A stretch of DNA of 64,000 nucleotides, from the NCBI RefSeq assembly GCF_000758665.1, contig NZ_CP009285.1:7254001-7318000 (forward strand), given 5' to 3'. The notes below the pieces were generated by a model. It worked only from the letters and a program-made list of their open reading frames with translations. It had not been told where the DNA came from and ran no database searches. The position numbers were made by a program, and so were the translations under genes. Below, one piece after another: positions 8,475 through 58,572 of the stretch (within the stretch, counting starts at the first letter, position 1; each line of letters begins with the position of its first letter). The stretch is from Paenibacillus borealis (lineage in GTDB: Bacteria; Bacillota; Bacilli; Paenibacillales; Paenibacillaceae).

Positions 8475-8819
8475 TTACTTGCCGCGGTAAGTCTCGGTGA
8501 AGACCTCGAAGAAAGGGGTCGTGTCCCGCTCCGCCATCGTATCCTCCGCACCCGGATTCCAGCCGATCTCTGCCCGCCAGCTGCCCAGCAGGCCTGATTC
8601 AATCAGCTCCTGCTCATCCTGGGCGATGGACAGATCTGCCTGCGGCGCCACATACAGCGCATCCACCGGACAATATGCCTCGCACATGAAACAGGTCTGG
8701 CAATCCTCCTGGCGGGCAATGACGGCAAGCTTGCCCTGCATCTCGAAGACATTCGTCGGGCACACCTTCACGCACAGCTTGCAGCCGATGCAGCGGTCCT
8801 GGCTGACCAGTTCAATCAT
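8475..8819 (-). CDS. 2x[4Fe-4S] ferredoxin subunit (copy 1)
   Basis: A 114-residue dicluster ferredoxin. The two cluster motifs are DRCIGCKLCVKVCP and EDCQTCFMCEAYCP, about 26 residues apart, as in the iron-sulfur subunit of adenylylsulfate reductase (AprB) and related two-subunit enzymes. A C-terminal tail of about 45 residues follows. Its ATG overlaps the stop of the flavoprotein by four bases (ATGA), so the two are translationally coupled and probably form one complex, the ferredoxin passing electrons to or from the FAD. Last gene of the operon. The second pair (12479-14415) repeats this arrangement. Confidence 0.85.
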   Translation of the reverse strand: MIELVSQDRCIGCKLCVKVCPTNVFEMQGKLAVIARQEDCQTCFMCEAYCPVDALYVAPQADLSIAQDEQELIESGLLGSWRAEIGWNPGAEDTMAERDTTPFFEVFTETYRGK

Positions 8820-10426
8820 ATCGCCCGCTCCTCTCTCGGAATCCGCAGCTCATGGGCATGCGGCACGCTTTCGGTGCGGATGCCGATCGTATCAATGCCG
8901 GAGAGGATCAGCCGGTGGGTCTGGCGCGGGTCCAGCGCCGGATACTCGGCCAGGCGCTGCAGCCCGCGGCTCTCCTTGCGGGCCAGCGCGGCGGTGTAGA
9001 TCCAGCGGCCGACATTCAGCATGGCGGCCGCTTCACGCGATTGCACGATGCCCTGAACCGTCGCGGGCACCTGCCCGCTGAGCTCGGGCATCAGGCTGTT
9101 CAGCCGCTGCAGGGCTGCAGCGACTACGGGTTCGCTGCGGAAGTAGTTGATCCGCAGCGGCAGGATCTCCCGCTGGACCGCCGCGATCAGCGGCTTCGCG
9201 TCCAGCGTCCTTGCAGTGCCGGCGCCAGCCGGCATCCCGTAGCGGCCCGCCGCGCGGAGCAGCCGGCTGTCCGCCGGACGCGGCTCCTGCAGAGCGTGCC
9301 GCGCCGCGCCTTGTCCTGCCCAGCTGCCGCTGCAGATGGCCCAGGATGCATTGTAGGCGCCGCCGCCGGAGATGGCGCCGGTGACTTTCTCGCGGGATGC
9401 GGCATCCCCGGCCGCATACAGCCCCGGCACCGAGGTGGCACAATCGGTGCCGGTCAGGCGCAGGCCGCCCGTGCCGCGCATCGTGCCTTCATAGCGCAGC
9501 GTGAGCGGGAATTTATCCTTGAACGGATCGATCCCCGCCCGCTCCAGCGGCATGAAGAAGATCGGATGGGCATTGCGGAGGAAATCCTGCTTCTCCTTCG
9601 TATCAGCCAGATCCAGCGAGGCGTAGACCGGTCCCTTCAGCATCAGCTCGGGGATGCTGCCGAAGGTGCGGTCGCCCTGGTGCAGCGGCCTTCCCGCTTC
9701 ATCATACAGCGTGGCCCAGGCCAGCATCCGCCCGCGCGTCACCGTTCCATCCGCGAAGCTCGGAGCATACTGCCGGGTGAATTCCATGCCCGACAGCTCG
9801 GCACCGGCTTCGGCTGACATCAGCAGCCCTTCGCCTGTGAGCACATTACAGCCCAGCCCCTTGCTAAGGAAGGCGCAGCCTCCGGTAGCCATAATCACCG
9901 CATTCGCCTTCACTTCCCAGCTCTCTCCGGTCAGGCGGTTAATTCCGCGCGCTCCGCCCACGCCGTGCTGATCATGAAGCAGCTCCAGTGCCGGCGATTG
10001 ATCCCAGATGCGCACTCCCGCCTTGCGCACCACTCTGCGCATAATCTTCATGTATTCCGGGCCATGCAGATGCGTCCGCAGCGGCCTGCCATCCTCATCC
10101 TTCGGAAAGGGGTATCCCCACGCCTCTACCAGCTCCAGATTCTGTTCGACCTGATCCAGCACACGGTGAATCCAGGCATTCTCCGACAGATAGCCGCCTG
10201 CCTTAAGTCTGGCCTGCACAGCCTGCTCCCGCAGCTCTGCTACCGGCGGAATCACCAGCAGCGTTGTTCCTCCCGGCGCGGTAGCCCCGCTTGTTCCGAG
10301 ATATCCCTTATCGGCCAGAATTACCTTCGCTCCCTGAGAAGCTGCACTCCATGCCGCCCATGCTCCGGCCGGGCCTCCGCCCAGCACTAGAACATCTGTT
10401 GTTGCCTGCTGATGCTGCTGCGGCAT
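8816..10426 (-). CDS. FAD-dependent oxidoreductase, fumarate reductase/AprA-like (copy 1)
   Basis: A 536-residue flavoprotein with an N-terminal dinucleotide-binding fold (VLVLGGGPAGAWAAWSAAS, then LADKGYLGTSGATAPGG). A middle part has ATGGCAFLSKGLGCNVLTGEG, and a C-terminal FAD motif reads VPGLYAAGDAAS. The arrangement is that of the succinate dehydrogenase/fumarate reductase flavoprotein superfamily, and the partner ferredoxin makes it most like AprA of adenylylsulfate reductase. The substrate is not evident. It follows an alpha/beta hydrolase and a sulfonate-type importer in one operon. GAGGAGG precedes the start. G+C is higher around 9000-9400 than in neighbouring genes. Confidence 0.82.
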   Translation of the reverse strand: MPQQHQQATTDVLVLGGGPAGAWAAWSAASQGAKVILADKGYLGTSGATAPGGTTLLVIPPVAELREQAVQARLKAGGYLSENAWIHRVLDQVEQNLELVEAWGYPFPKDEDGRPLRTHLHGPEYMKIMRRVVRKAGVRIWDQSPALELLHDQHGVGGARGINRLTGESWEVKANAVIMATGGCAFLSKGLGCNVLTGEGLLMSAEAGAELSGMEFTRQYAPSFADGTVTRGRMLAWATLYDEAGRPLHQGDRTFGSIPELMLKGPVYASLDLADTKEKQDFLRNAHPIFFMPLERAGIDPFKDKFPLTLRYEGTMRGTGGLRLTGTDCATSVPGLYAAGDAASREKVTGAISGGGAYNASWAICSGSWAGQGAARHALQEPRPADSRLLRAAGRYGMPAGAGTARTLDAKPLIAAVQREILPLRINYFRSEPVVAAALQRLNSLMPELSGQVPATVQGIVQSREAAAMLNVGRWIYTAALARKESRGLQRLAEYPALDPRQTHRLILSGIDTIGIRTESVPHAHELRIPREERAI

Positions 10427-10470
10427 TCCGCTTCCTCCTCTTCATGGTCCTCTGAAATGTAGAAATAAGA

Positions 10471-11271
10471 TCAGACCAGCTTCTCCTGCAAAAATGCTAT
10501 CGTCGAGGCAACAGCCTCATTCAGCGCAGACGTGGAGCCTTCGTACGGGTCCACCGTGCCGAAAGTGTGATCTGCACCCCGGATGCTCAGGTACCGGTGC
10601 TGCGGCGCCTGTTCCCTGAAGCCTGCATGCTGCAGCAGCAGGGCTTCACGGTCCTGATCACCCTGTATCAGCAGCGCCGCGGCCGATACTCTGCCCAGCG
10701 CGTCCTCCAGATTGAAGCGCTCCTTGTTTCGCTGCTGATCCTCGCGGATCGCCCGCTCCTGCGGCGTAAGCGCCGGAGCACCTTCATCCTGCTGCGGCTG
10801 CGGCGCAGAACCGCCGTTCCAGACCACCAGCGCCTTCACCTCAGGATGCTCTGCCGCGAACAGAATGTTGCTTCCGCCTGCACGGCTGTGCCCCAGAACC
10901 GCTATCCGCTCCGTGTCAGCCAATCCGGCAAGCGGCAGACTGCCTTCCTTGAGACTATTCAGTACCTGCTCCAGATCGAGCAGCTCCCGGCTCAGCGTAG
11001 CCGCTTCGGCAGCTTCCTCCGGGTTAATCCCGTCAATATTACGGGCAGCGATACGCGAGAAGTTGAAGCTTACGGTGTAGAACCCGCTTCCGGCAAGTCT
11101 GCCGGAGACCTCCGGCCAGAATGCCCAGTCCTTATGTCCTCTGAAGCCATGGCTGATCAGGATGACGGGCTTCGGTGCAGTCCCCGCAGGAACCCGCACC
11201 TCACCCTCCAGATTCAGCCCGTTCTCCAGCGGCAGCTTGAAATGTTCAATGGTTAAGGTTTCTTCGGACAT
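10471..11271 (-). CDS. alpha/beta hydrolase (dienelactone hydrolase-like)
   Basis: About 266 residues with the alpha/beta hydrolase signature: oxyanion region ISHGFRGHKDW, nucleophile Ser129 in LGHSRAGGSN, acid in IQGDQDREALL, and catalytic His in RGADHTFGT. It resembles peptidase S9/dienelactone-type esterases. The ATG at 11269-11271 lies seven bases after GGAGGG; the ATG two codons earlier is too close. It sits between the solute-binding protein and flavoprotein copy 1, so it may hydrolyse an ester or amide intermediate of the imported compound (inference). Confidence 0.8.
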   Translation of the reverse strand: MSEETLTIEHFKLPLENGLNLEGEVRVPAGTAPKPVILISHGFRGHKDWAFWPEVSGRLAGSGFYTVSFNFSRIAARNIDGINPEEAAEAATLSRELLDLEQVLNSLKEGSLPLAGLADTERIAVLGHSRAGGSNILFAAEHPEVKALVVWNGGSAPQPQQDEGAPALTPQERAIREDQQRNKERFNLEDALGRVSAAALLIQGDQDREALLLQHAGFREQAPQHRYLSIRGADHTFGTVDPYEGSTSALNEAVASTIAFLQEKLV

Positions 11272-11306
11272 CCGCATTCCCTCCGTTCACCTGTATTTAT
11301 ATTTAT

Positions 11307-12377
11307 TTACTGGAGCTGCCAGTCGCTGATATTGAAATCCTTCTTGGCCAGCTTCTCTTCAACAAGGAAATTCTTGGTGCCCTCCAGCAGCTTCGTGCCG
11401 TCTTCCGTGAAGGCGGTATCCTTGATATCGCTGATCGGATTCACCTGCTTCGCAAGTTCCGGGGTTGTATCCCCGATCTCGGCCAGGAACTCATAATACT
11501 CATCTTCATGCTGCTTCAGGTCAGCCAGCGCCTTCTCCCGTGCCGCATTCCAGACCTTCGGGAAATCCGGGAATTTCGCAAGGTATTCCTCTGACACTAC
11601 GGTAGCACTGCTTCCGAGCAGATCCGGATGGGTCGAAGCATCATCCAAATGGGTGTACCCCTGCTCGATCTGCTTAAGTGCCGCTACACCGTTATTGGTG
11701 GTTGCGTCTACATCTCCGCGGGCCAGTGCTGCGGTTGCATCCGGAATCAGCATATGAACCAGCTTATAGTCAGTTACGCCCTCCTGCTTCAGCAGGCCGA
11801 CTACGTAACGGTGCATAAACGAACCTTTTTGGATCGCAATTGTCTTGCCCTTCAGGTCCTGCACCGTCTTCGGTCCATCCTTCTTGCCGATTAGATAACC
11901 GACCGTATGCGCTGAAGTCTGGGCGATCAGCCGGGTCTTGGCTCCTGAGGCGTAGGCGATAATTGCCGGGGTATCCCCGAGGCTGCCGAAATCTAGTCTT
12001 CCGCTGATTAAGGATTCCGTCTGATCCGGTCCGTTCGGGAAGCCGGTCAGCTTCACTTCGGTAATTCCGTATTTCTTCAGCTCTTCCTGGATAATGCCTT
12101 TATAGAGGCCCCAGCCTTCCGCGCCGCCCGGCACATTCAGCTTATTGGAACCGATGTAGCCGAAATTCAGCACAGCCGGAACATTGCTTGCCGTCTCACT
12201 GCCCGCCGCTTCAGCCGTATTCGTTCCTGCGCCGTTCGCTGCTGTCCCGCTGTTCCCGGAGCCGGTATTATTACCGCAAGCCTGCAGCACCAGCATGATC
12301 ATCACCACACCTGTTATCAGCGTGAGGCGTCCCCCTTTGCTCCATACACCTTTAATCTCTCTGTACAATTTGCTCAT
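11307..12377 (-). CDS. ABC transporter substrate-binding lipoprotein, SsuA/TauA/NrtA type
   Basis: A 356-residue lipoprotein: signal peptide at residues 15-33 ending in the lipobox LQAC, then a linker rich in Asn, Gly, Thr and Ala. The mature part shows the aliphatic sulfonate/nitrate-type fold (LNFGYIGSNKLNVPGGAEGWG; LDFGSLGDTPAIIAYASGA; KGKTIAIQKGSFMHRYVVGLL). The family binds sulfonates, taurine, nitrate or thiamine precursors at the outer face. Two SsuC-like permeases and an SsuB-like ATPase in the same operon complete the importer. GAGGGGAG precedes the start. Confidence 0.88.
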   Translation of the reverse strand: MSKLYREIKGVWSKGGRLTLITGVVMIMLVLQACGNNTGSGNSGTAANGAGTNTAEAAGSETASNVPAVLNFGYIGSNKLNVPGGAEGWGLYKGIIQEELKKYGITEVKLTGFPNGPDQTESLISGRLDFGSLGDTPAIIAYASGAKTRLIAQTSAHTVGYLIGKKDGPKTVQDLKGKTIAIQKGSFMHRYVVGLLKQEGVTDYKLVHMLIPDATAALARGDVDATTNNGVAALKQIEQGYTHLDDASTHPDLLGSSATVVSEEYLAKFPDFPKVWNAAREKALADLKQHEDEYYEFLAEIGDTTPELAKQVNPISDIKDTAFTEDGTKLLEGTKNFLVEEKLAKKDFNISDWQLQ

Positions 12378-12478
12378 TGCTTTATTCTCCCCTCAGTCGT
12401 CTGCTCGATGTTTGATATTGGATGGTTGTATAAGGACACTTGCCTGTATTCTAATTAGGTTCTATAACGATGCATCAT

Positions 12479-12811
12479 TCAGAATCCAGCCCGGGCCGCC
12501 AGCTTATACATAAAGTCATGACTTGCCACCGGCTGTCTGCCCTTGCCCCAGCCTACCTTCTCGCGGTAACCGCCGAGCAGCCCCTGCTGTTCCAGCTCCG
12601 CCTCTGTAATCCCGGTAATCCCCTCGGAATCCGGAGCCACATACAGGGCATCCACCGGACAATACAGCTCACACATGAAGCAGGTCTGGCAGTCACTCTG
12701 CCGGGCGATGACCGGAATTCCGTCCTCCACCCGGTCGAATACATTGGTCGGGCAGACAGATACACATTGATTGCATTCTACACACCGGTCAGCGCTGATG
12801 ACTTCAATCAC
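12479..12811 (-). CDS. 2x[4Fe-4S] ferredoxin subunit (copy 2)
   Basis: A 110-residue dicluster ferredoxin with DRCVECNQCVSVCP and SDCQTCFMCELYCP, closely similar to copy 1 at 8475-8819. I place the start at GTG 12809-12811, since GGAGAG lies about nine bases upstream and the GTGA overlaps the flavoprotein stop by four bases, mirroring the ATGA overlap of the other pair. Longer in-frame readings run into the flavoprotein gene and are not supported. Confidence 0.82.
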   Translation of the reverse strand: MIEVISADRCVECNQCVSVCPTNVFDRVEDGIPVIARQSDCQTCFMCELYCPVDALYVAPDSEGITGITEAELEQQGLLGGYREKVGWGKGRQPVASHDFMYKLAARAGF

Positions 12812-14415
12812 AACAATACACTCTCCTTCGCTACCTCTTCTGTCTTCACCCATACCTGATCCAGTCCGCCGCTGATCAGGCGGTGATGCTGGCTGTCGTC
12901 GCTTCCCTTGAAATCCTCCCGCTTGTGCATTCCCCGGGTTTCGGTGCGGGCCAGAGCGGAGCTGTACATCCAGCGTGCCGTTGCCGTCATCGCTTCGGCT
13001 TCGCGTGCCTTCACACCTTCCGGAGTGCGCTGGATTTCCCGGCTGCGCTGCTCTTTCCATAGTCCGTCCAGACGTTCCAGCGAAGATGCCAGTCCCTGCT
13101 CTGTACGGAACAGATTAATATCGTACGGTTTGACTTCTGCCTGTACCGCCTCCACGTATTCTGCGGTTCTGGCAGCGGCTCCCGCCTTCACTTCCTGGTG
13201 AACCAGCGGTGAAGAGGATAACCCGACGGGTGCGCGGTGATCCGAATGCCGGCCGAGTCCGGCTGCATAGGCTGCCGCCCCTTCTCCTGCGAAGGAGCCG
13301 GAAGACATCGCCCAAGCGGCGTTATGGCTACCGCCTCCGGTGAACCCTCCGCAGATCAGCTCACGGGTGGCCGCATCCCCTGCGGCATATAACCCTGGAA
13401 CGCCAGTGCCGCAATTCTCGTCTGTAATCCGGATGCCGCCTGTTCCGCGGACCGTGCCTTCCAGCCGCAGCGTCACCGGGAAGACATCCTTGAAGGGATT
13501 AATGCCCCGCCGGTCAAACGGCAGGAAGAAATTCGTCTGCGCCACCCGCAGCAGCGGCTGCAATGCCTCATCGGCTCCGTCAAGCTTCGCAAATACCTGG
13601 CGGCCCGCCAGCAGATTTCTGGCAATTACAGAGCGGCCCTTCTTGGAACCCGCTCCTTCCACCACACTGCCGTCCTCATAGTAGAAGCTGGCGTAGCTGT
13701 AATAAGCGGTCTTCGTTACGGAGGAGAAGGTCGGGCAGATCGCGTAGGCATTGGAGAACTCCATACCCGACAAGCTCGCCCCTGCTTCAGCGGCGAATAA
13801 GTACCCGTCACCCGTCAATACGTTGCAGCCCAGCGCCTTGCTGAGGAAAGCGCAGCCCCCGGTAGCGATAACTACCGCCCCGGCATGCACACTCCAGGCC
13901 TCTCCGCTCTGGGTCTGCACTCCGGCGGCTCCGGCTACCCCGTGCTCATCGGCGAGCAGCTCCAGCACCGGGCTGTGGTCCAGAATCTTCACCCCCGCCT
14001 TCTTCACCAGCTTGCGCATCAGGCGCATATATTCAGGTCCTTGCAGGCTCCGGCGGTATTGATTGCCTTCCTCATCCACCGGGAACGGATAGCCGGCAAC
14101 GCCCAGTCTATTCATGTTCTCATAGGTCCGGTCCAGCACCCTGTCCATCCAGCGGTGCTCAGCCAGCTTGCCGCCCATCGTGTAGCGGCTGGCCTTCGCT
14201 GCTTCACGCAGCTCCTCCTCCGGCTTCACGTACCACACTCCTGTGCCCGACGGGGCAGTCGCACCGCTGGAGCCGCAGTATCCCTTATCAGCCAGGATCA
14301 CCTTTGCTCCCTTAGCTGCGGCTGTAAGTGCCGCCCATGTTCCTGCCGGACCACCGCCGATTACCAATACATCCGCCGTCAGTTTCAATGTTTCCTTCAG
14401 TGCCGGTTGGTTCAT
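12808..14415 (-). CDS. FAD-dependent oxidoreductase, fumarate reductase/AprA-like (copy 2)
   Basis: A 535-residue flavoprotein, paralogous to 8816-10426 along its whole length: VLVIGGGPAGTWAAL, LADKGYCGSSGATAPSGT, ATGGCAFLSKALGCNVLTGDG and VPGLYAAGDAATRE are nearly the same. It is coupled to its own ferredoxin by a GTGA overlap. Differences are concentrated in the middle (around residues 200-290) and the C-terminal helices, as expected if the two pairs act on different substrates or different steps. AAGGGGG precedes the ATG. It lies directly after the two permeases. Confidence 0.83.
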   Translation of the reverse strand: MNQPALKETLKLTADVLVIGGGPAGTWAALTAAAKGAKVILADKGYCGSSGATAPSGTGVWYVKPEEELREAAKASRYTMGGKLAEHRWMDRVLDRTYENMNRLGVAGYPFPVDEEGNQYRRSLQGPEYMRLMRKLVKKAGVKILDHSPVLELLADEHGVAGAAGVQTQSGEAWSVHAGAVVIATGGCAFLSKALGCNVLTGDGYLFAAEAGASLSGMEFSNAYAICPTFSSVTKTAYYSYASFYYEDGSVVEGAGSKKGRSVIARNLLAGRQVFAKLDGADEALQPLLRVAQTNFFLPFDRRGINPFKDVFPVTLRLEGTVRGTGGIRITDENCGTGVPGLYAAGDAATRELICGGFTGGGSHNAAWAMSSGSFAGEGAAAYAAGLGRHSDHRAPVGLSSSPLVHQEVKAGAAARTAEYVEAVQAEVKPYDINLFRTEQGLASSLERLDGLWKEQRSREIQRTPEGVKAREAEAMTATARWMYSSALARTETRGMHKREDFKGSDDSQHHRLISGGLDQVWVKTEEVAKESVLL

Positions 14416-14469
14416 GTTGTTGCCCCCTTGGTTTCATTAGCATTTCAGAAGCGTTTCAGCAACTTGTCA

Positions 14470-15357
14470 TTAGCCTTGATAGCTGTCACGCCAGTACAGG
14501 AATTTGCGTTCGATGACGCGGAATAGAGAATCAATCAGCTTGCCGACCACTGCAAAAATAATAATTCCGACAAAAATAACTGCCGTATTGGAATTCTGCT
14601 TCGCCTCATTAATTAGGAATCCAACACCGGACTGTGATCCGATCAGTTCGGCAACCACCAGACCGATCCAGGCCACAGCCATCGACAGGCGCAGTCCCAG
14701 CAGAATGCCCGGCAGCGCCGCCGGCAGGATCAGCCGCCGCAGCTTCTGCAGCGGGCTGAATCCGAGCACCCGGGCTACTTCAAACAGCTTGTTGTCCACT
14801 CCCCGGATGCCCATAAAAGTATTAATATAGAGCGGGAAGAAAGAGCCGCTCATAATAATAACCACCTTCGAAATCTCCCCGAAGCCGAACCATAGAATGA
14901 TCAGCGGGGCAATAGCCAGATGGGGAACCAGCCGCAGAATCTGCACGCTCGGGTCCAGCAGATAGGCTGCGCTGCGGAAGAGGCCGGTCAGTGTCCCCAG
15001 CAGCAGGCCGAGAATTCCTCCAATCAGGAACCCGATGCCAGCCCGTCCGATACTGACGCCCAGATGATGAATAAGCTCCCCGCTAACCGCCAGATCCGCA
15101 AATGCGGAGAGAATGCTCAGCGGTGCCGGAAGAAATTCCGGCGAGATCCAGCCTGCACTCCCGGCAAGCTGCCATAAGGCGATTACGGCTACGGGAATTA
15201 GCGCCCCGGTGCCCCAGTCGGACAAGAGAGCTTTCCAGGAAGCAACAGTTAATCTTCTCTTGTTGTTATGCGTAGTAATTGAAGCCGTTCCGCTATAATC
15301 ACGGGCTTCCCTTACCCCCTTGGCGGTCTTGATTATTGCTTCTATCCCTTCACTCAT
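14470..15357 (-). CDS. ABC transporter permease, SsuC type (second)
   Basis: A 295-residue BPD-type permease with six likely membrane segments and the sulfonate/nitrate permease EAA region (VDNKLFEVARVLGFSPLQKLRRLILPAALPGIL). The N-terminal 45 residues are polar and basic. It starts behind AGGAGGGG, 15 bp after the preceding permease, which it strongly resembles (shared ends with RWRDSYQG / YWRDSYQG). The two probably form a heterodimeric channel. Confidence 0.88.
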   Translation of the reverse strand: MSEGIEAIIKTAKGVREARDYSGTASITTHNNKRRLTVASWKALLSDWGTGALIPVAVIALWQLAGSAGWISPEFLPAPLSILSAFADLAVSGELIHHLGVSIGRAGIGFLIGGILGLLLGTLTGLFRSAAYLLDPSVQILRLVPHLAIAPLIILWFGFGEISKVVIIMSGSFFPLYINTFMGIRGVDNKLFEVARVLGFSPLQKLRRLILPAALPGILLGLRLSMAVAWIGLVVAELIGSQSGVGFLINEAKQNSNTAVIFVGIIIFAVVGKLIDSLFRVIERKFLYWRDSYQG

Positions 15358-15372
15358 GCGGTTCTTCCCCTC

Positions 15373-16194
15373 CTATCCTTGATAGCTGTCCCGCCACCGC
15401 AGCAGCCGCTGCTCGATCAGGCGGACAATCGTGTCACTCAGCAATCCGGCAGCGGCAAATACAATAATCCCGACAAACACTACAGGCGTATCGGCAAACT
15501 GGCGGGCATCCGACATCATGTAGCCGATCCCAGAGGTGGAAGCAATCAGCTCCGCCACCACCAGACCCAGCCATGAGAGGCCCAGCGACAAGCGCACACC
15601 GAGCATAATATTCGGCACTGCTGCCGGGAGCACCAGCCGTACAATCTGTTTCCCTCTGCTGAAGCCAAGCACCCGGGCAACTTCGAACAGCTTGTTATCC
15701 GTTCCGCGTATGCCCATGAAGGTATTAATATAAATCGGGAAAAAAGCCCCTTTAGCAATCAGCAGCACCTTGGATTCCTCGCCGATGCCGAACCAGAGAA
15801 TGAACAGCGGCACTACGGCCAGACTGGGTATCATCCGGATCATTTGCAGCGAAGGATCCAGCAGCTTCTCCGATCTGCGGAATAATCCGACCAGAATGCC
15901 GAACAGCAGACCCAGCCCGCCGCCAAGCAGAAATCCTGACAATGCCCGCACAACACTGATTCTGAGGTTGCTCCATAAATCCCCGGTAGACGCCAGCGTA
16001 ATGAACGACTGGACAATCGTATAAGGAGCCGGGAACAGCATCTCCGAGATCATTCCGTAATGGCTCAGGATCTGCCACAGGATCAACACCCCTGCCGGAA
16101 GCAGCAACCCCAGACCGGCAATTGCCGCTTTTCCGGGTCCTTCAGGCCTGCCGGTTCTTCCGGCATTCCCTGCAGCTATAGCGCGTTCAGCCAT
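15373..16194 (-). CDS. ABC transporter permease, SsuC type (first)
   Basis: A 273-residue permease with the same architecture as its neighbour: six hydrophobic segments and the coupling loop DNKLFEVARVLGFSRGKQIVRLVLPAAVPNIM. AAGGAGGG sits ahead of the ATG. Having two different permeases is less common than the single SsuC of Bacillus subtilis and points to a heterodimer. A 408-bp gap containing a dispersed repeat separates it from the ATPase gene upstream. Confidence 0.88.
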   Translation of the reverse strand: MAERAIAAGNAGRTGRPEGPGKAAIAGLGLLLPAGVLILWQILSHYGMISEMLFPAPYTIVQSFITLASTGDLWSNLRISVVRALSGFLLGGGLGLLFGILVGLFRRSEKLLDPSLQMIRMIPSLAVVPLFILWFGIGEESKVLLIAKGAFFPIYINTFMGIRGTDNKLFEVARVLGFSRGKQIVRLVLPAAVPNIMLGVRLSLGLSWLGLVVAELIASTSGIGYMMSDARQFADTPVVFVGIIVFAAAGLLSDTIVRLIEQRLLRWRDSYQG

Positions 16195-16350
16195 GGCTGT
16201 CCCTCCTTCTGAATTAATTAATATATTCGCATGGATTAAGTCGGATATAAGCCGGCACTTGCTCTCTCTTTTTCACAATACAGCCCTCCTGCACCGTCTT
16301 CCTGCATAACCGTTAAGACCGCTGTAGCTCCTCCTTTACGATCACATTCT

Positions 16351-16530
16351 GAAATCCTGCACAAAATACATCATTTCCCTCATCATATCGTTCATAACTC
16401 AAAATTGTTGTACAAAAGGCATCAATTGTTCCTCTCCAAGCCTCTCAGCGGGATAATTCTTGTATTCTGTACAACATCCCTTCGAACTCGCCTGGTATCG
16501 TTGATCAAAGTTGTATTACGTACAACAATA
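16351..16530 (+). repeat. dispersed GTTGTA/TACAAC four-unit element, copy A
   Basis: About 180 bp holding four near-palindromic 16-mers centred near 16366, 16413, 16467 and 16518 (for example TTGTATTCTGTACAAC and TTGTATTACGTACAAC), spaced 47, 54 and 51 bp. Copy B at 58393-58572 aligns along its full length, and copy C at 42670-42855 is inverted. No protein is encoded. It lies inside the transport operon, between the ATPase and first permease genes. The rest of 16195-16602 shows nothing recognisable. Confidence 0.8.
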
Positions 16531-16602
16531 TGCGTTTACCGTGTCTACCCAAGAGTCTCCATTCAGACAACAACGAACTACGAACCACGAATAAGGAGTC
16601 AC

Positions 16603-17379
16603 TTATATTCCCGCCCCATCCTTCAGCTCAAGCTCGTCGACCTTCTCAAAGTAGTTCAATACCTTCAGGCGCAGCTCTTGAAAGGAGGTTGTTGTTTTTT
16701 TGCGCGGATAGGGGAGGTCGACAGGAACGATCTTGCGGATTTTACCCGGGCGGGGTTCAAGGATGACGACCCGGTTGCCGAGGAATACTGCTTCATCAAT
16801 ATCATGGGTTACAAAAATCATCGTAGTCCGGTTCCGCCGCCAAATATCGAGCAGCACCGTCTGCATATGCGCCCGGGTGAAGGCATCCAGCGCACCAAAG
16901 GGTTCGTCAAGCAGCAGAATCTTCGGATTCCGCAGCAGCGCACGGGCAATTGCCACACGCTGAGCCATCCCGCCCGACAGCTCGCGGGGGTAGGATTTCT
17001 CGAAGCCGCCCAGCTTCACGAGATCAATCAGCTCATCTACCCTCTTCCGGATATCCGGCCTGCCCAGCGGCAGATCAGAGGCAATGTTCTTCTCTACCGT
17101 AAGCCACGGGAACAAGCGGTGCTCCTGAAAAATAAACCCCTTGTCGATTCCCGGCCCGCCTATCTCTGCACCTTCCAGCGTAACTTTACCGGTATAGCCG
17201 GTATCCAGACCGGCAACGATGCGCAGCAGGGTGCTTTTGCCGCAGCCGCTGGGACCAATCACCGTGATGAATTCCCCTTCCTCTACATGCAGCTCCACAT
17301 CCTGCAATGCCTGTACATGTCCTCCGGCGGTATCAAAGCGCTTATTCAGCTGTGTGATGGACAATAAAGCCTCTCCCAT
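16603..17379 (-). CDS. ABC transporter ATP-binding protein, SsuB/TauB type
   Basis: A 258-residue ATPase: Walker [11 protein letters not shown]-loop [11 protein letters not shown], signature LSGGMAQR, Walker [13 protein letters not shown], and H-loop [10 protein letters not shown]. Family members energise sulfonate, taurine or nitrate import. The true start is the ATG at 17377-17379 behind AAGGAGGAG; the longer frame extends into the leader terminator. It is the first gene of the nine-gene operon ending at 8475. Confidence 0.92.
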
Positions 17380-17419: not shown

Positions 17420-17465
17420 AAAAAAACAGAGGAACCTCGCGATCGGACTCGCGCGGCACCTCTGT
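17420..17465 (-). terminator. leader terminator (attenuator) ahead of the sulfonate-type operon
   Basis: On the minus strand ACAGAGG-CC-CGCGA pairs with TCGCG-GG-CCTCTGT, followed by seven Ts. It lies between the promoter at 17520-17548 and the first gene, 41 bp ahead of its ATG. No minus-strand gene lies upstream, so it can only act on this operon's own leader. Confidence 0.65.
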
Positions 17466-17485
17466 CTGTACAGTCGGCTGTGTTT

Positions 17486-17509
17486 ATTCCTAAGTAAATC
17501 AATTGGAAT
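17486..17509. promoter_or_regulatory. ATTCC-N14-GGAAT dyad, possible CymR-type operator
   Basis: An inverted repeat ATTCC/GGAAT over 24 bp just downstream of the -10 of the operon promoter. It recalls the A/T-rich ATTCC..GGAAT sites of Rrf2-type cysteine regulators such as CymR, which controls ssu genes in Bacillus. The match is by eye and from memory. Confidence 0.35.
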
Positions 17510-17519
17510 TTGTAAATTT

Positions 17520-17548
17520 AAAATATCACCTATCTGTAAATCTGTCAA
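17520..17548 (-). promoter_or_regulatory. promoter of the sulfonate-type operon
   Basis: Minus-strand TTGACA (17543-17548), 17-base spacer, TATTTT (17520-17525). Predicted leader is about 135 bases. Confidence 0.65.
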
Positions 17549-17815: not shown

Positions 17816-18955
17816 ATGAACAATCAAGGGAACAATCAAGGGAACAATCAAGGGAATGATCAAGCGAAACAAGCGGCTGAACCGGAGTTCGAGTTCGGTA
17901 TTTATACACTCGGAGATATCGTAGCCGATTGCCAAACGGGGCAGCGGATCAGTCCCCGCCAGCGGCTGCATGAAGTGATTGCTGCAGCGAAGCTTGCCGA
18001 TGAAGCAGGTCTGGACGTATTCGGCGTGGGCGAACATCACCGGCTGGATTTCGTCATCTCGTCAGTGCCGGTTGTGCTGGCAGCTATTGCCCAGGTTACA
18101 GAGCGGATTAAGCTCACCAGTGCAACCACCGTACTGAGTACGATTGATCCGGTTCGTGTCTTCGAGGATTTCGCTACACTGGATCTGCTGTCAGACGGCC
18201 GGGCAGAGATTATCGCCGGACGCGGCGCTTTCCTGGAATCCTTCCCGCTGTTCGGCTATGAGCTGGAGGATTACAAGCAGCTGTTCAGCGAGAATCTCGA
18301 CCTGCTGCTCACGCTGAACCAGCATGAGGTCATGAACTGGGAAGGCAAGTTCCGCTCCCCGCTGCATAACGCTGAGATTGCTCCGCGTCCGCTGCAGCAG
18401 AAGCTCCCGCTCTGGGTCGGCATCGGCGGTTCGGCCGAAAGTGCCCAGAAAGCCGGCGCGCTGGGTGTAGGTATGGCTATCGCCATTCTGAGCGGCAGTC
18501 CGGAGCCTTTCCAGAATCTGGCCGACACCTACCGCCGCTCTGGCGCCGCAGCAGGGCACGGGCCGGAAGACTTGAAGATCGCCATTACGAGCCACGGTTA
18601 CATCGCCAAGACATCCCAGCAGGCACTGGATGAGTATTATCCTTATTACTATAGCTACCGCAATGCGATCAGCCCGAAACCCGGCCAGGAATACCGTGTC
18701 TCACGCAAGGAATTCGGCCGGTTCACCTCTCCGGACAATACCCTGGCAGTGGGCAGCCCGCAGCAGATTGTTGAGAAAATCCTCTATCAGCATGAGCTGT
18801 TCGGCCATCACCGCTTCATGACCCAGCTGGATATCGGCGGCCTTCCCTATGCCAAGGTCGCAGAAGCCATCGAGCTGCTGGCAACAGAAGTAGCTCCGGT
18901 TGTGCGGCGTGAGCTCGCCAAGAAGCGCAGCGGAATCTCCGCTCCGCAATCATAA
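17816..18955 (+). CDS. LLM-class flavin-dependent monooxygenase (luciferase-like)
   Basis: A 379-residue bacterial luciferase-family enzyme that would use reduced FMN and oxygen. Key stretches: [70 protein letters not shown]. The N terminus carries three copies of Asn-Asn-Gln-Gly encoded by a 12-bp tandem repeat, which is probably unstructured. It is divergent from the flavoprotein/importer operon (gap about 440 bp), so desulfonation or a related monooxygenation of the imported compound is a reasonable guess. It is less like SsuD than like the broad LLM group. A paralogue is at 49336-50406. Confidence 0.85.
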   Translation: MNNQGNNQGNNQGNDQAKQAAEPEFEFGIYTLGDIVADCQTGQRISPRQRLHEVIAAAKLADEAGLDVFGVGEHHRLDFVISSVPVVLAAIAQVTERIKLTSATTVLSTIDPVRVFEDFATLDLLSDGRAEIIAGRGAFLESFPLFGYELEDYKQLFSENLDLLLTLNQHEVMNWEGKFRSPLHNAEIAPRPLQQKLPLWVGIGGSAESAQKAGALGVGMAIAILSGSPEPFQNLADTYRRSGAAAGHGPEDLKIAITSHGYIAKTSQQALDEYYPYYYSYRNAISPKPGQEYRVSRKEFGRFTSPDNTLAVGSPQQIVEKILYQHELFGHHRFMTQLDIGGLPYAKVAEAIELLATEVAPVVRRELAKKRSGISAPQS

Positions 18956-37442: not shown

Positions 37443-39176
37443 TTATTTTTCCGCTTTCCCTTTCCAGGTGTCCTTCAGCGGGACGATCCGGTTGAATACC
37501 AGACGTTCCTCACTGTTAAGCTTGTTGTCCACACAGAAATAGCCGTGGCGCAGGAATTGAAATTTATCTCCGGGCTGTGGTTTATCCGCAAGCGGCTCCA
37601 GCAGGCAATCTTTAAGCAGGGTTACAGAATCCGGGTTGATGTATTCCTCCCAGGTCTCCCCTTCTTCCTTCGGCCCGTCGTTATCTGTAAGCAGCTTTTC
37701 ATAAAGGTACACGTCGCTTTTGACCGCATGGGCAGCTGACACCCAGTGAATGGTTCCTTTTACCTTCCGCCCGTCAAAGCCATTTCCGCTCTTTGTATCC
37801 GGGTCATAGGTGCAGCGCAGCTCACTGATCTCACCTGTAGCCTCGTTCTTAATAACTTCATTACACTTGATAAAATACCCGCCCTTAAGCCGCACCTCTC
37901 CGCCTGGAGTCAGTCTGCGGAACCCTTTGACGGGTTCTTCCATGAAGTCATCGCGCTCGATATAGAGCGTGCCGGAGAACGGAACATTCCTTGTGCCGAG
38001 CTCAGCATTCTCGCTGTTGTACTCAATGTTAAGAAATTCAGAAGCCCCGGCTTCGTAATTGGTAAGCACGACCTTCAGCGGATTCAGCACGGCCATAATG
38101 GCCGGCGCCTCCGCCTTAAGATCCTGTCTTACACAATGCTCCAGCAGTGAGAAATCCACCATCGTCGTATTGCGTACCATGCCAATCTCCCGGACAAAAG
38201 CCTTGATGCTCTCCGGCGTGAAACCGCGTCTGCGCAGTCCACGGAGAGTAGGCAGACGCGGATCATCCCAGCCGTCCACGTAATTCCCGGCAACCAGCGC
38301 CCGGAGATAACGTTTGCTTGTAACCACTCCCGTCAGATTCACCCGGCCGAATTCCCTTTGCTTGGGCGGTTCTGGGATGCTCAGCTCGTTCAGCACCCAC
38401 TCATACAGCGGCCGGTGATCCTTGAACTCAATGGAGCACAGCGAATGTGTCACGCCTTCGATGGCATCCTGAATCGGATGAGCGAAGTCATACATCGGGT
38501 AGATGCACCAGGCATCCCCCGTGCGGTAGTGCTCCGCATGAATGATCCGGTAGAGTACCGGGTCGCGCAGATTGATGTTCGGTGAAGACATGTCGATTCT
38601 GGCCCGCAGCACCTTTGAACCGTTTGGATAATTTCCATCGCGCATCCCTCTGAACAACCGCAGATTCTCTTCCGGAGAGCGGTCCCGGAACGGGCTATCC
38701 TTCCCCGGTTCGGTTAATGTTCCCCGATAAGAGGTCACTTCCTCCGGAGTCAGGTCGCAGACATAAGCCTTCCCCTTAAGAATCAGCTCTTCTGCGCTGC
38801 GGAAGATTTCCTCCGAATAATCAGAGCCGTAATAGATATGATCTCCAGGGCTACAGCCCAGCCATTCGATATCTTCGATGATGGCATTCACATACTCCAT
38901 ATCCTCTTTCAGCGGATTGGTATCATCGAAGCGCAGATGGAATCTGCCGCCGTTCTTACGCGCAACCTCATAGTTCGTGTGGATGGCAAAAGCACTCCCG
39001 ATATGCAGATAGCCATTGGGCTCCGGCGGGAACCTCGTGCAGATCTCCCTGCTGTAGACTCCGCTCTCCACATCCTCCCTGATGATCTTATCCATATAAT
39101 TCTCCGGCAGGGCCGGCTCGTTAGCAGCATTAACATCATTAACAGCATTAACAGCATTAACATTACCGAGAGTCAT
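37443..39176 (-). CDS. glnS: glutaminyl-tRNA synthetase
   Basis: 577 residues, class I aminoacyl-tRNA synthetase charging tRNA-Gln. HIGH-type motif in PPEPNGYLHIGSA, KMSKS-type motif in VVTSKRYLR, tRNA-acceptor-binding YDFAHPIQDAIEGVTHS, and a C-terminal beta-barrel anticodon-binding region. Start at the ATG 39174-39176 (eight bases after GGAGG); the ATG one codon earlier is also possible, and the much longer frame is leader. The N terminus has an odd repeat NAVNAVNDVNAAN. Many Bacillales rely on GatCAB for Gln-tRNA, so glnS here may be an acquired addition. Confidence 0.93.
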   Translation of the reverse strand: MTLGNVNAVNAVNDVNAANEPALPENYMDKIIREDVESGVYSREICTRFPPEPNGYLHIGSAFAIHTNYEVARKNGGRFHLRFDDTNPLKEDMEYVNAIIEDIEWLGCSPGDHIYYGSDYSEEIFRSAEELILKGKAYVCDLTPEEVTSYRGTLTEPGKDSPFRDRSPEENLRLFRGMRDGNYPNGSKVLRARIDMSSPNINLRDPVLYRIIHAEHYRTGDAWCIYPMYDFAHPIQDAIEGVTHSLCSIEFKDHRPLYEWVLNELSIPEPPKQREFGRVNLTGVVTSKRYLRALVAGNYVDGWDDPRLPTLRGLRRRGFTPESIKAFVREIGMVRNTTMVDFSLLEHCVRQDLKAEAPAIMAVLNPLKVVLTNYEAGASEFLNIEYNSENAELGTRNVPFSGTLYIERDDFMEEPVKGFRRLTPGGEVRLKGGYFIKCNEVIKNEATGEISELRCTYDPDTKSGNGFDGRKVKGTIHWVSAAHAVKSDVYLYEKLLTDNDGPKEEGETWEEYINPDSVTLLKDCLLEPLADKPQPGDKFQFLRHGYFCVDNKLNSEERLVFNRIVPLKDTWKGKAEK

Positions 39177-39225
39177 CATGATCTCCTCCTGTATATTGGT
39201 AATACCTGCCCTTACGGGGCAACAA

Positions 39226-39510
39226 AAAAGAACCTCACCTCCAAGACTGTAGTCTTGGGGACGAGATTCTCGCAGTACCACCCCAGGTTTATTAATATGT
39301 CGCCATATTAATCTCATCAAGTACGGCGCCGCCGTCAGGCAGGGCTTATACTCTAGCTCTGTAACAGGAGCTCCTGTTGTACCATCCCCGGCCCATAGCC
39401 GGTTCCGATACACCGCTCAGAGGCTTGTTTCGGTCCAGCCTTCCCTGCTCCTTCGCACCAGCCGGAGCTCTCTGTAAGGGAGTGAATGGACCTACTCTTC
39501 TCGTCATCGC
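39226..39510 (-). promoter_or_regulatory. T-box leader of glnS, specifier CAA (Gln)
   Basis: Minus strand: stem I begins GATGACGAGAAGAGTAGGTCC, with GGTCC pairing with GGACC. The loop reads GAAACAAGCC, putting CAA (39425-39427), a glutamine codon, at the specifier position. The T-box core is GGGTGGTACTGCGAG (39269-39283), and the terminator CCAAGACT/AGTCTTGG with flanking GAG/CTC pairs ends in TTTTTT. Uncharged tRNA-Gln would relieve termination. Confidence 0.9.
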
Positions 39511-39527
39511 GTTTCATCATTTGATCC

Positions 39528-58333: not shown

Positions 58334-58392
58334 GCTATGATCCTCTCCTCGAATTCATCCGCTTTTGCTGGCAGAGATCCGGTATTTATTCG

Positions 58393-58572
58393 GAAATCCT
58401 GCACATAATACAACATTTCCCTCAATATATCGGCCCAAATCCAAAATTGTTGTACAAAAGGCAATATTCTTCCTGCTCCAAGCGCCCTAACGGGACAATT
58501 CCTGTATTTCGTACAACAATTCTCCCGCGCACACAGGTATCGAGGAATCAAAGTTGTACAACGTACAACATC
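58393..58572 (+). repeat. dispersed GTTGTA/TACAAC four-unit element, copy B
   Basis: Aligns with copy A (16351-16530) from GAAATCCTGCACA to the last TACAACA, about three quarters identical. Units centred near 58407, 58455, 58510 and 58562 are spaced 48, 55 and 52 bp. Confidence 0.8.

Follow-up and report, generated by a model that had tools for sequence, protein, structure and literature searches.

A Paenibacillus borealis operon with two AsfAB-type flavoprotein-ferredoxin pairs, probably serving sulfur scavenging from sulfonate-type compounds

Introduction

What does a bacterium gain from two related flavoproteins of the flavin adenine dinucleotide (FAD) type, each followed by its own ferredoxin, in one operon with a sulfonate-type importer? 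This question is raised by a nine-gene operon of Paenibacillus borealis, which we analyzed within a window of 64,000 nucleotides (the whole stretch of DNA, positions 7,254,001-7,318,000 of the 8.16-Mb one-contig genome; coordinates below are those of the window). The operon occupies positions 17379-8475 on the minus strand and encodes in this order an ATPase, permease 1, permease 2, flavoprotein A, ferredoxin A, a binding protein, a hydrolase, flavoprotein B and ferredoxin B. An earlier reading of this DNA (hereafter the original prediction) had seen in it an organosulfur import and redox operon. In the reading that we favour, with a probability of about 0.72, the operon is of the asf kind and scavenges sulfur from sulfonate-type compounds, its two AsfAB modules working in parallel and differing in specificity.

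The flavoproteins are relatives of AsfA

In a translated search of plasmid records, replicon 2 (CHR2) of Cupriavidus metallidurans CH34 gave a single match, a relative of flavoprotein A (12808..14415, minus strand) with 60% identity over 96%. The gene of this relative is overlapped by a ferredoxin open reading frame (ORF) of 111 amino acids, and genes for an ATP-binding cassette (ABC) permease, an ATPase and a binding protein lie further downstream on the opposite strand. Excerpts of the CH34 genome paper place asfRAB on the second replicon and describe Rmet_4334/5 as the reductase-ferredoxin pair AsfA/AsfB. The fetched CH34 stretch carries no gene annotation; being the sole match in that replicon record, the relative is presumably Rmet_4334. 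Regarding function, the review excerpts at hand report that in Pseudomonas putida S-313 the asfRABC genes (encoding a binding protein, an ABC transporter, a reductase/ferredoxin pair and a LysR regulator) must accompany ssu if aromatic compounds are to be desulfonated, and that transposon insertion in asfA costs the cell aromatic sulfonates as a sulfur source but not aliphatic ones. In the body of excerpts used here (PMC4267179, PMC2864759, PMC9694294, PMC10322725, PMC8557817, PMC7661421, PMC4070957, PMC10441942), asfA figures as an established marker for the use of aromatic sulfonates in soils. Given the CH34 relative and the asf genetics, we identify the core of the operon as an asfAB module, so the earlier view that no described pathway has such a composition was wrong for this core. 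Whether the flavoproteins cluster with a family of known function, a point that the original prediction had raised against itself, has a two-sided answer: flavoprotein A groups with AsfA, whose phenotype is known, and the chemistry of AsfA is not settled in the literature excerpts.

Flavoprotein B (8816..10426, minus strand) is 51% identical to flavoprotein A and about 49% identical to the CH34 relative, to which it stands as a sister subfamily; the next match in the P. borealis genome reaches 36% over 203 residues. Pfam finds FAD_binding_2 and the Succ_DH/FRD C-terminal domain on both. Ferredoxin A (12479..12811, minus strand, GTG start) and ferredoxin B (8475..8819, minus strand), both 4Fe-4S dicluster proteins by Pfam, have eight cysteines each, enough by sequence for two [4Fe-4S] clusters, and form separate subunits, as AprB does. 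Each flavoprotein stop overlaps the start of its ferredoxin by four bases, GTGA at 12808-12811 and ATGA at 8816-8819, as had been noticed before. The likeness to asf of P. putida S-313 and CH34 lies in this flavoprotein followed immediately by a 2x[4Fe-4S] ferredoxin, with sulfonate-type ABC genes near. The P. borealis operon differs in having two such pairs of different subfamilies, a hydrolase, two permeases and a leader terminator, and a Pfam scan of its nine genes found no LysR-type (AsfR-like) regulator among them. Paenibacillus, of the Bacillota, is absent from the asfA genera named in the excerpts, and neither a tandem A/B pair nor AsfAB in Paenibacillus was found in print among open-licence PMC papers.

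The flavoproteins had been assigned to the AprA/fumarate reductase class. This holds for the Pfam group and for the fold: flavoprotein A gave a predicted structure with a predicted local distance difference test score (pLDDT) of 92, and the flavoprotein fold matches that of fumarate reductase (FRD), aspartate oxidase and PAPS reductase across the whole chain, with about 20% identity to AprAB/PAPS-reductase-type proteins. It does not extend to the AprA model, which scores 43.5 bits for B and 30.3 bits for A against a cut-off of 641.75. Ferredoxin B matches 8a8o_C, the beta subunit of the Methanothermococcus thermolithotrophicus PAPS reductase (E 5.7e-9, one among many ferredoxin matches). The class also fails at the residues of FrdA: in an alignment that joins distant sequences in these stretches, the positions of Escherichia coli FrdA His232, His355 and Arg390, its catalytic and substrate-binding residues, are taken by Tyr224, Glu319 and Gly360. 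The model of NadB (L-aspartate oxidase) gives 87.8 bits for B and 85.9 bits for A against a cut-off of 452.75, and all the NCBIfam matches listed, 25 of the 60 to B and 25 of the 67 to A, fall below their curated cut-offs. With the residues not kept and the scores far under the cut-offs, we rejected fumarate reductase, succinate dehydrogenase and aspartate oxidase functions.

Distribution of AsfA and its gene neighbourhood

In one scan of GTDB genome contigs, 79 named loci were found among the best 80 matches listed, from Pseudomonadota, Cyanobacteriota, Actinomycetota, Bacillota, Planctomycetota, Myxococcota and Armatimonadota. A 2x[4Fe-4S] motif within 700 bp follows AsfA in 76 of them; the call misses L083, L096 (contig end) and L139, and for the last the ORF listing shows a ferredoxin beside the A copy. 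We then counted neighbours with a simple ORF picker, scanning one representative per cluster. An Ssu-type binding protein lies near AsfA in 49 of the named loci, which makes this combination common across bacteria and further reduces the novelty claimed for the operon; an ABC ATPase was found in 45 and a permease in 40 (clusters not limited to sulfonate importers), a luciferase-like monooxygenase (LLM) in 21, an acyl-CoA-dehydrogenase-fold protein in 12 and a TauD-type dioxygenase in 8. Within the Paenibacillaceae, the AsfA family is present in 38/148 genomes (E 1e-80). A viral collection yielded 169 pattern matches and no relatives among them.

Two subfamilies, found together and apart

The family tree splits into subfamily A, with the CH34 protein and flavoprotein A of the window, and subfamily B, with flavoprotein B. 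In a quick tree of 121 rows, built without flavoprotein ORFs below 470 or above 620 amino acids, the split has a Shimodaira-Hasegawa-like approximate likelihood ratio (SH-aLRT) support of 95. In a careful tree of 56 rows (57 supplied, L135_pairB being dropped by the program; L136_pairB covers 28% of the columns) bootstrap and SH-aLRT support are 90/96. We found 13 A/B-specific sites, six of which fall within 18 of the 535 positions, a stretch aligned with the substrate-arginine loop of fumarate reductase. This concentration suggests that the substrate pockets of A and B probably differ.

When scored by best match, 48 of the 79 named loci hold A only, 19 hold B only and 12 hold both. The 12 double loci (six in Bacillota, four in Actinomycetota and two in Alphaproteobacteria) have one A and one B copy each. 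A further 44 loci, from 40 Paenibacillaceae stretches and four plasmid records, comprise 24 with A only, 5 with B only and 15 with both. Two A copies were seen in none of the 123 loci; L079 and L080, which have no A, carry two and three copies of B, respectively. The A and B copies of L086 are about 7 kb apart, with importer genes beside each, and those of L139 are several kb apart. Five B-only loci (L081, L131, L134, L144 and L147) have an importer of their own, which argues that B works without A. The co-location of A and B is either old or was assembled more than once, and the 12 double loci are not independent.

In L109 (12922-14518, Cohnella ginsengisoli) the B flavoprotein is split over two ORFs that overlap, possibly through a frameshift or an error in sequencing. 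L116, titled as a Rhodococcus metagenome-assembled genome and assigned to a cyanobacterial family by lineage lookup, clusters with Rhodococcus in the tree, so its label is probably in error.

SsuD and other oxygenases

Like SsuEADCB systems, the operon has an SsuABC-type importer. It differs from them in its redox proteins and in that none of its nine genes encodes SsuD; a full-score SsuD of P. borealis is encoded 1.3 Mb away. Of the 38 Paenibacillaceae genomes with AsfA, 18 have no SsuD match over the curated cut-off, although two of these, G042 and G123, have a weaker one. No single monooxygenase is constant beside AsfAB in the 79 named loci. On a Nostoc plasmid, AsfAB is surrounded by genes for SsuD, LLMs and a sulfonate binding protein, and in L071 (Paenibacillaceae) two HpaB-type oxygenase genes adjoin it. 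With SsuD in some AsfA genomes and such varied oxygenase neighbours, AsfAB is not tied to one oxygenase; it works either with several or alone.

L071-L075 are look-alike clusters in which AsfAB is accompanied by an ATPase, CopC/YcnI-like genes and a pair of HpaB-type genes for aromatic monooxygenases; the HpaB scan covered L071 of these, and the CopC/YcnI naming was made by eye.

The importer, the hydrolase and gene order

All nine genes, with both pairs, the hydrolase, the importer and its two permeases, were found by coordinates and Pfam where the original prediction had placed them, and its organosulfur import and redox reading is supported. The SsuB/TauB-type ABC ATPase (16603..17379, minus strand, PF00005) starts with the ATG at 17379, the TTG at 17502 falling in the leader; its best NCBIfam matches are SaoA, nitrate, taurine and related ATPases, all those shown being under cut-off. 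The two SsuC-type permeases (15373..16194 and 14470..15357, minus strand, both PF00528) score 252.9 and 240 bits with the SsuC model, whose cut-off is 347, and the SsuA-type (NMT1) binding protein (11307..12377, minus strand, PF09084) scores 136.9 bits with TIGR01728 against 163.5. With these scores under the curated SsuA and SsuC cut-offs, 'sulfonate-type' is a family-level label for the importer. The alpha/beta hydrolase (10471..11277, minus strand, PF01738) is of the DLH type and has a GHSRAGG motif.

Among the best 8000 candidates scored by common words, the nearest named relatives of the window proteins are from Paenibacillus. The order ATPase, permease, permease, flavoprotein A, ferredoxin, binding protein is kept in 12/12 of the closest loci (L042-L053), more than expected by chance, while the hydrolase and the B pair are variably present. 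Close copies of the hydrolase (at least 59% identity, one of them split in two pieces) were found in 3 of the 60 genomes searched, P. borealis included. The LLM previously described as diverging from the operon is present at 17816..18955 on the plus strand (PF00296; TIGR03858-like, 405.4 bits against a cut-off of 462.25) and directly adjoins the operon in 8/12 of the closest loci (L042-L049). Its association with the operon is tentative.

Interpretation

Under our favoured reading, the SsuABC-type importer would take up an organosulfonate, probably an aromatic one, and the 2x[4Fe-4S] ferredoxin AsfB would pass electrons to the FAD of AsfA, helping to release the sulfur. This electron path is suggested by the AprAB/PAPS-reductase-like make-up of the pair. 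Since A and B are two old subfamilies with probably different pockets, the two modules most likely broaden the range of compounds in parallel rather than in series. That AsfA processes the substrate itself, instead of merely supplying electrons to a separate oxygenase, we regard as close to an even bet, leaning slightly towards no. A bolder version of this idea, that AsfA1-B1 and AsfA2-B2 are ancient, functionally distinct, self-sufficient and ferredoxin-fed flavoenzymes cleaving the C-S bond of different organosulfonates without SsuD, seems unlikely to us; in it, the FAD would be the site of a flavin-sulfite step like that of APS reductase or of a flavin oxygenation driven by ferredoxin.

If such a self-sufficient AsfA existed, it would add a further way of desulfonation to SsuD- and TauD-type oxygenases and to radical or lyase routes. 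Were AsfA to cleave the C-S bond itself, marker surveys and models of sulfur release in soil would have to be revised, as perhaps would routes for sulfonated pollutants. The asf literature, in the excerpts at hand, describes AsfAB only as an electron-transfer system and gives no chemistry. AsfA genomes without SsuD, together with two naturally paired subfamilies that differ in their pocket residues, make this chemistry testable. What we add to the known asf module is that its two subfamilies occur side by side, that some AsfA genomes lack SsuD and that the leader carries a terminator.

Several points weigh against our favoured reading. The reviews, as excerpted, cast AsfAB as electron transfer for oxygenation, required in addition to ssu. 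AsfA and SsuD are positively associated, SsuD being present in 20/38 genomes with AsfA and in 30/110 others (Fisher p 0.006), and other luciferase-like proteins occur in all 18 SsuD-less AsfA genomes, with 2 to 16 in each. L050-L053 have no LLM directly beside the operon (G013 and G053 have one about 6-7 kb upstream). The substrate assignment of the operon is drawn by analogy with the genetics of asfA in P. putida and with the family to which the importer belongs. The binding protein and both permeases stay under the curated cut-offs of that family, and AsfAB also lies near SBP_bac_1 and SBP_bac_5 binding proteins, so that its substrate range may exceed sulfonates. As for the subfamilies, the bootstrap of the A/B split is 90 and the split is present in 88% of the bootstrap trees of the careful tree. 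Rooting with FrdA is unreliable (path length 8.7), so calling the subfamilies 'old' relies on the way the unrooted tree divides and on their occurrence in several phyla, for which gene transfer between lineages may be the source. The clustering of A/B-specific sites has a p of 2e-6 that is post hoc, thresholds and stretch having been picked on the same data.

One could argue that AsfAB is an electron supply and nothing else, handing electrons or reduced flavin to SsuD or another LLM that would cleave the C-S bond with oxygen. We hold this published view to be a real possibility, if one that we would not bet on. It fits the association of SsuD with AsfA and the LLMs of the SsuD-less genomes, as well as the LLM diverging from the P. 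borealis operon, those near AsfA in 21/79 named loci and the HpaB-type genes of L071. It fits less well with the lack of a monooxygenase constant beside AsfAB, with the 18/38 AsfA genomes that have no SsuD above cut-off and with the gathering of A/B-specific substitutions at the substrate-loop stretch; moreover, the enzymes that share this fold, such as FRD, aspartate oxidase and PAPS reductase, convert small molecules at an FAD of their own. The original prediction had proposed a two-step redox route, in which A would form an intermediate that B and the hydrolase convert further. Such a series could account for A and B sharing one operon and one importer in P. borealis, for the single A and single B in all 12 double loci of three phyla, and for the hydrolase between A and B here and in several relatives. 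The prevalence of A-only and B-only loci weakens it, as do the B-only loci with their own importer, the B copies of L079 and L080 without an A, the separate importer genes in L086 and the lack of a hydrolase in the double loci L010, L046, L047 and L049-L052. We thus find it improbable.

It is also conceivable that the operon has nothing to do with sulfur, the NMT1-type importer serving another compound and the flavoproteins being unrelated reductases. NMT1/SsuA-type binding proteins have many ligands, the one encoded here is under the SsuA cut-off, and some AsfA relatives lie beside SBP_bac_1- or SBP_bac_5-type binding proteins. Membership in a family with a sulfonate phenotype and the recurrence of sulfur-gene neighbours speak against it and make it very improbable in our view. 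The amino acid composition points the same way: the seven operon proteins other than the ferredoxins contain 0.37-2.99% Cys+Met, against a median of about 3.3% in 40 background ORFs (p 0.006), a background that may contain spurious ORFs and to that extent tells against our own reading as well. Excerpts on Gordonia likewise report low Cys+Met in induced putative desulfonation proteins.

The leader of the operon

The operon is preceded by a conserved leader element, CCGACYGTNNNNACRGAGG, which runs into a terminator hairpin and a T run (17420..17477, minus strand). We examined the window and 28 loci, 21 of which gave an ATPase start, and found the element upstream of the ATPase in 16/22 leaders, with the hairpin and T run in each of these 16. 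The hairpin has -24.1 kcal/mol in P. borealis (hairpin z-scores were taken from plain letter shuffles). Its sequence varies between leaders while the pairing is kept; CTGT/ACAG in 14 leaders is replaced by CCGT/ACGG in L062 and L066, a paired change. From the motif to the ATPase start there are 191-305 bases in L042, L045 and L048 and 80-116 in the others. A promoter-like site, TTGACA-17-TATTTT (17520..17548, minus strand), matches the consensus and is kept in most aligned leaders; the region has 5 sites of this consensus, with 5.5 expected by chance.

Near the operon, Rfam gave no credible match, its one weak hit (E 4.8, a vertebrate RNA) being due to chance. We rejected a riboswitch or T-box in the leader, the sole match at gathering level in the window being a T-box at 39254-39516 (minus strand, 110.7 bits), which overlaps the 5' end of a minus-strand ORF at 37443-39413. 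A leader peptide was set aside because the TTG frame from 17502 is, judged by eye, not open in the leaders of all relatives. We also rejected a wider regulon: allowing up to two mismatches, the P. borealis genome has the exact site and one two-mismatch site (control 2), and the upstream box pattern has one site there (control 0).

Among the 148 family genomes, 23 contain the leader motif, while a reversed control pattern gave 12 hits in 11 genomes. Of the 23, 14 have it at AsfA operons, three at relic-like loci without the operon and the other six at chance-like places. At the relic-like loci, covered by about 1.5 kb on each side, the element stands before a truncated SsuB-like ATPase (L172, G086), before an apparent antisense of a GPx-type gene, as judged by eye (L181, G094), and before a sensor-kinase-like gene similar to the one that follows the operon in the window (L187, G074). 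Two of these genomes are of the same genus and one of another, none being among the 38 with AsfA. The leader there now adjoins either a truncated ATPase or other genes, so these sites seem to have lost the operon.

A dispersed repeat

The gap between the ATPase and permease genes is 408 bp, compared with 71-115 bp in the 12 closest loci, because a dispersed repeat of about 180 bp (16352..16530) sits there. Rfam gave no match for this copy. With 40 of 168 candidates scored and ten copies aligned, the repeat occurs at at least 39 further places in the P. borealis genome, excluding the self match and two overlapping hits. It has TGTTGTAC/GTACAACA boxes, and a second copy lies in the window at about 58388-58570.

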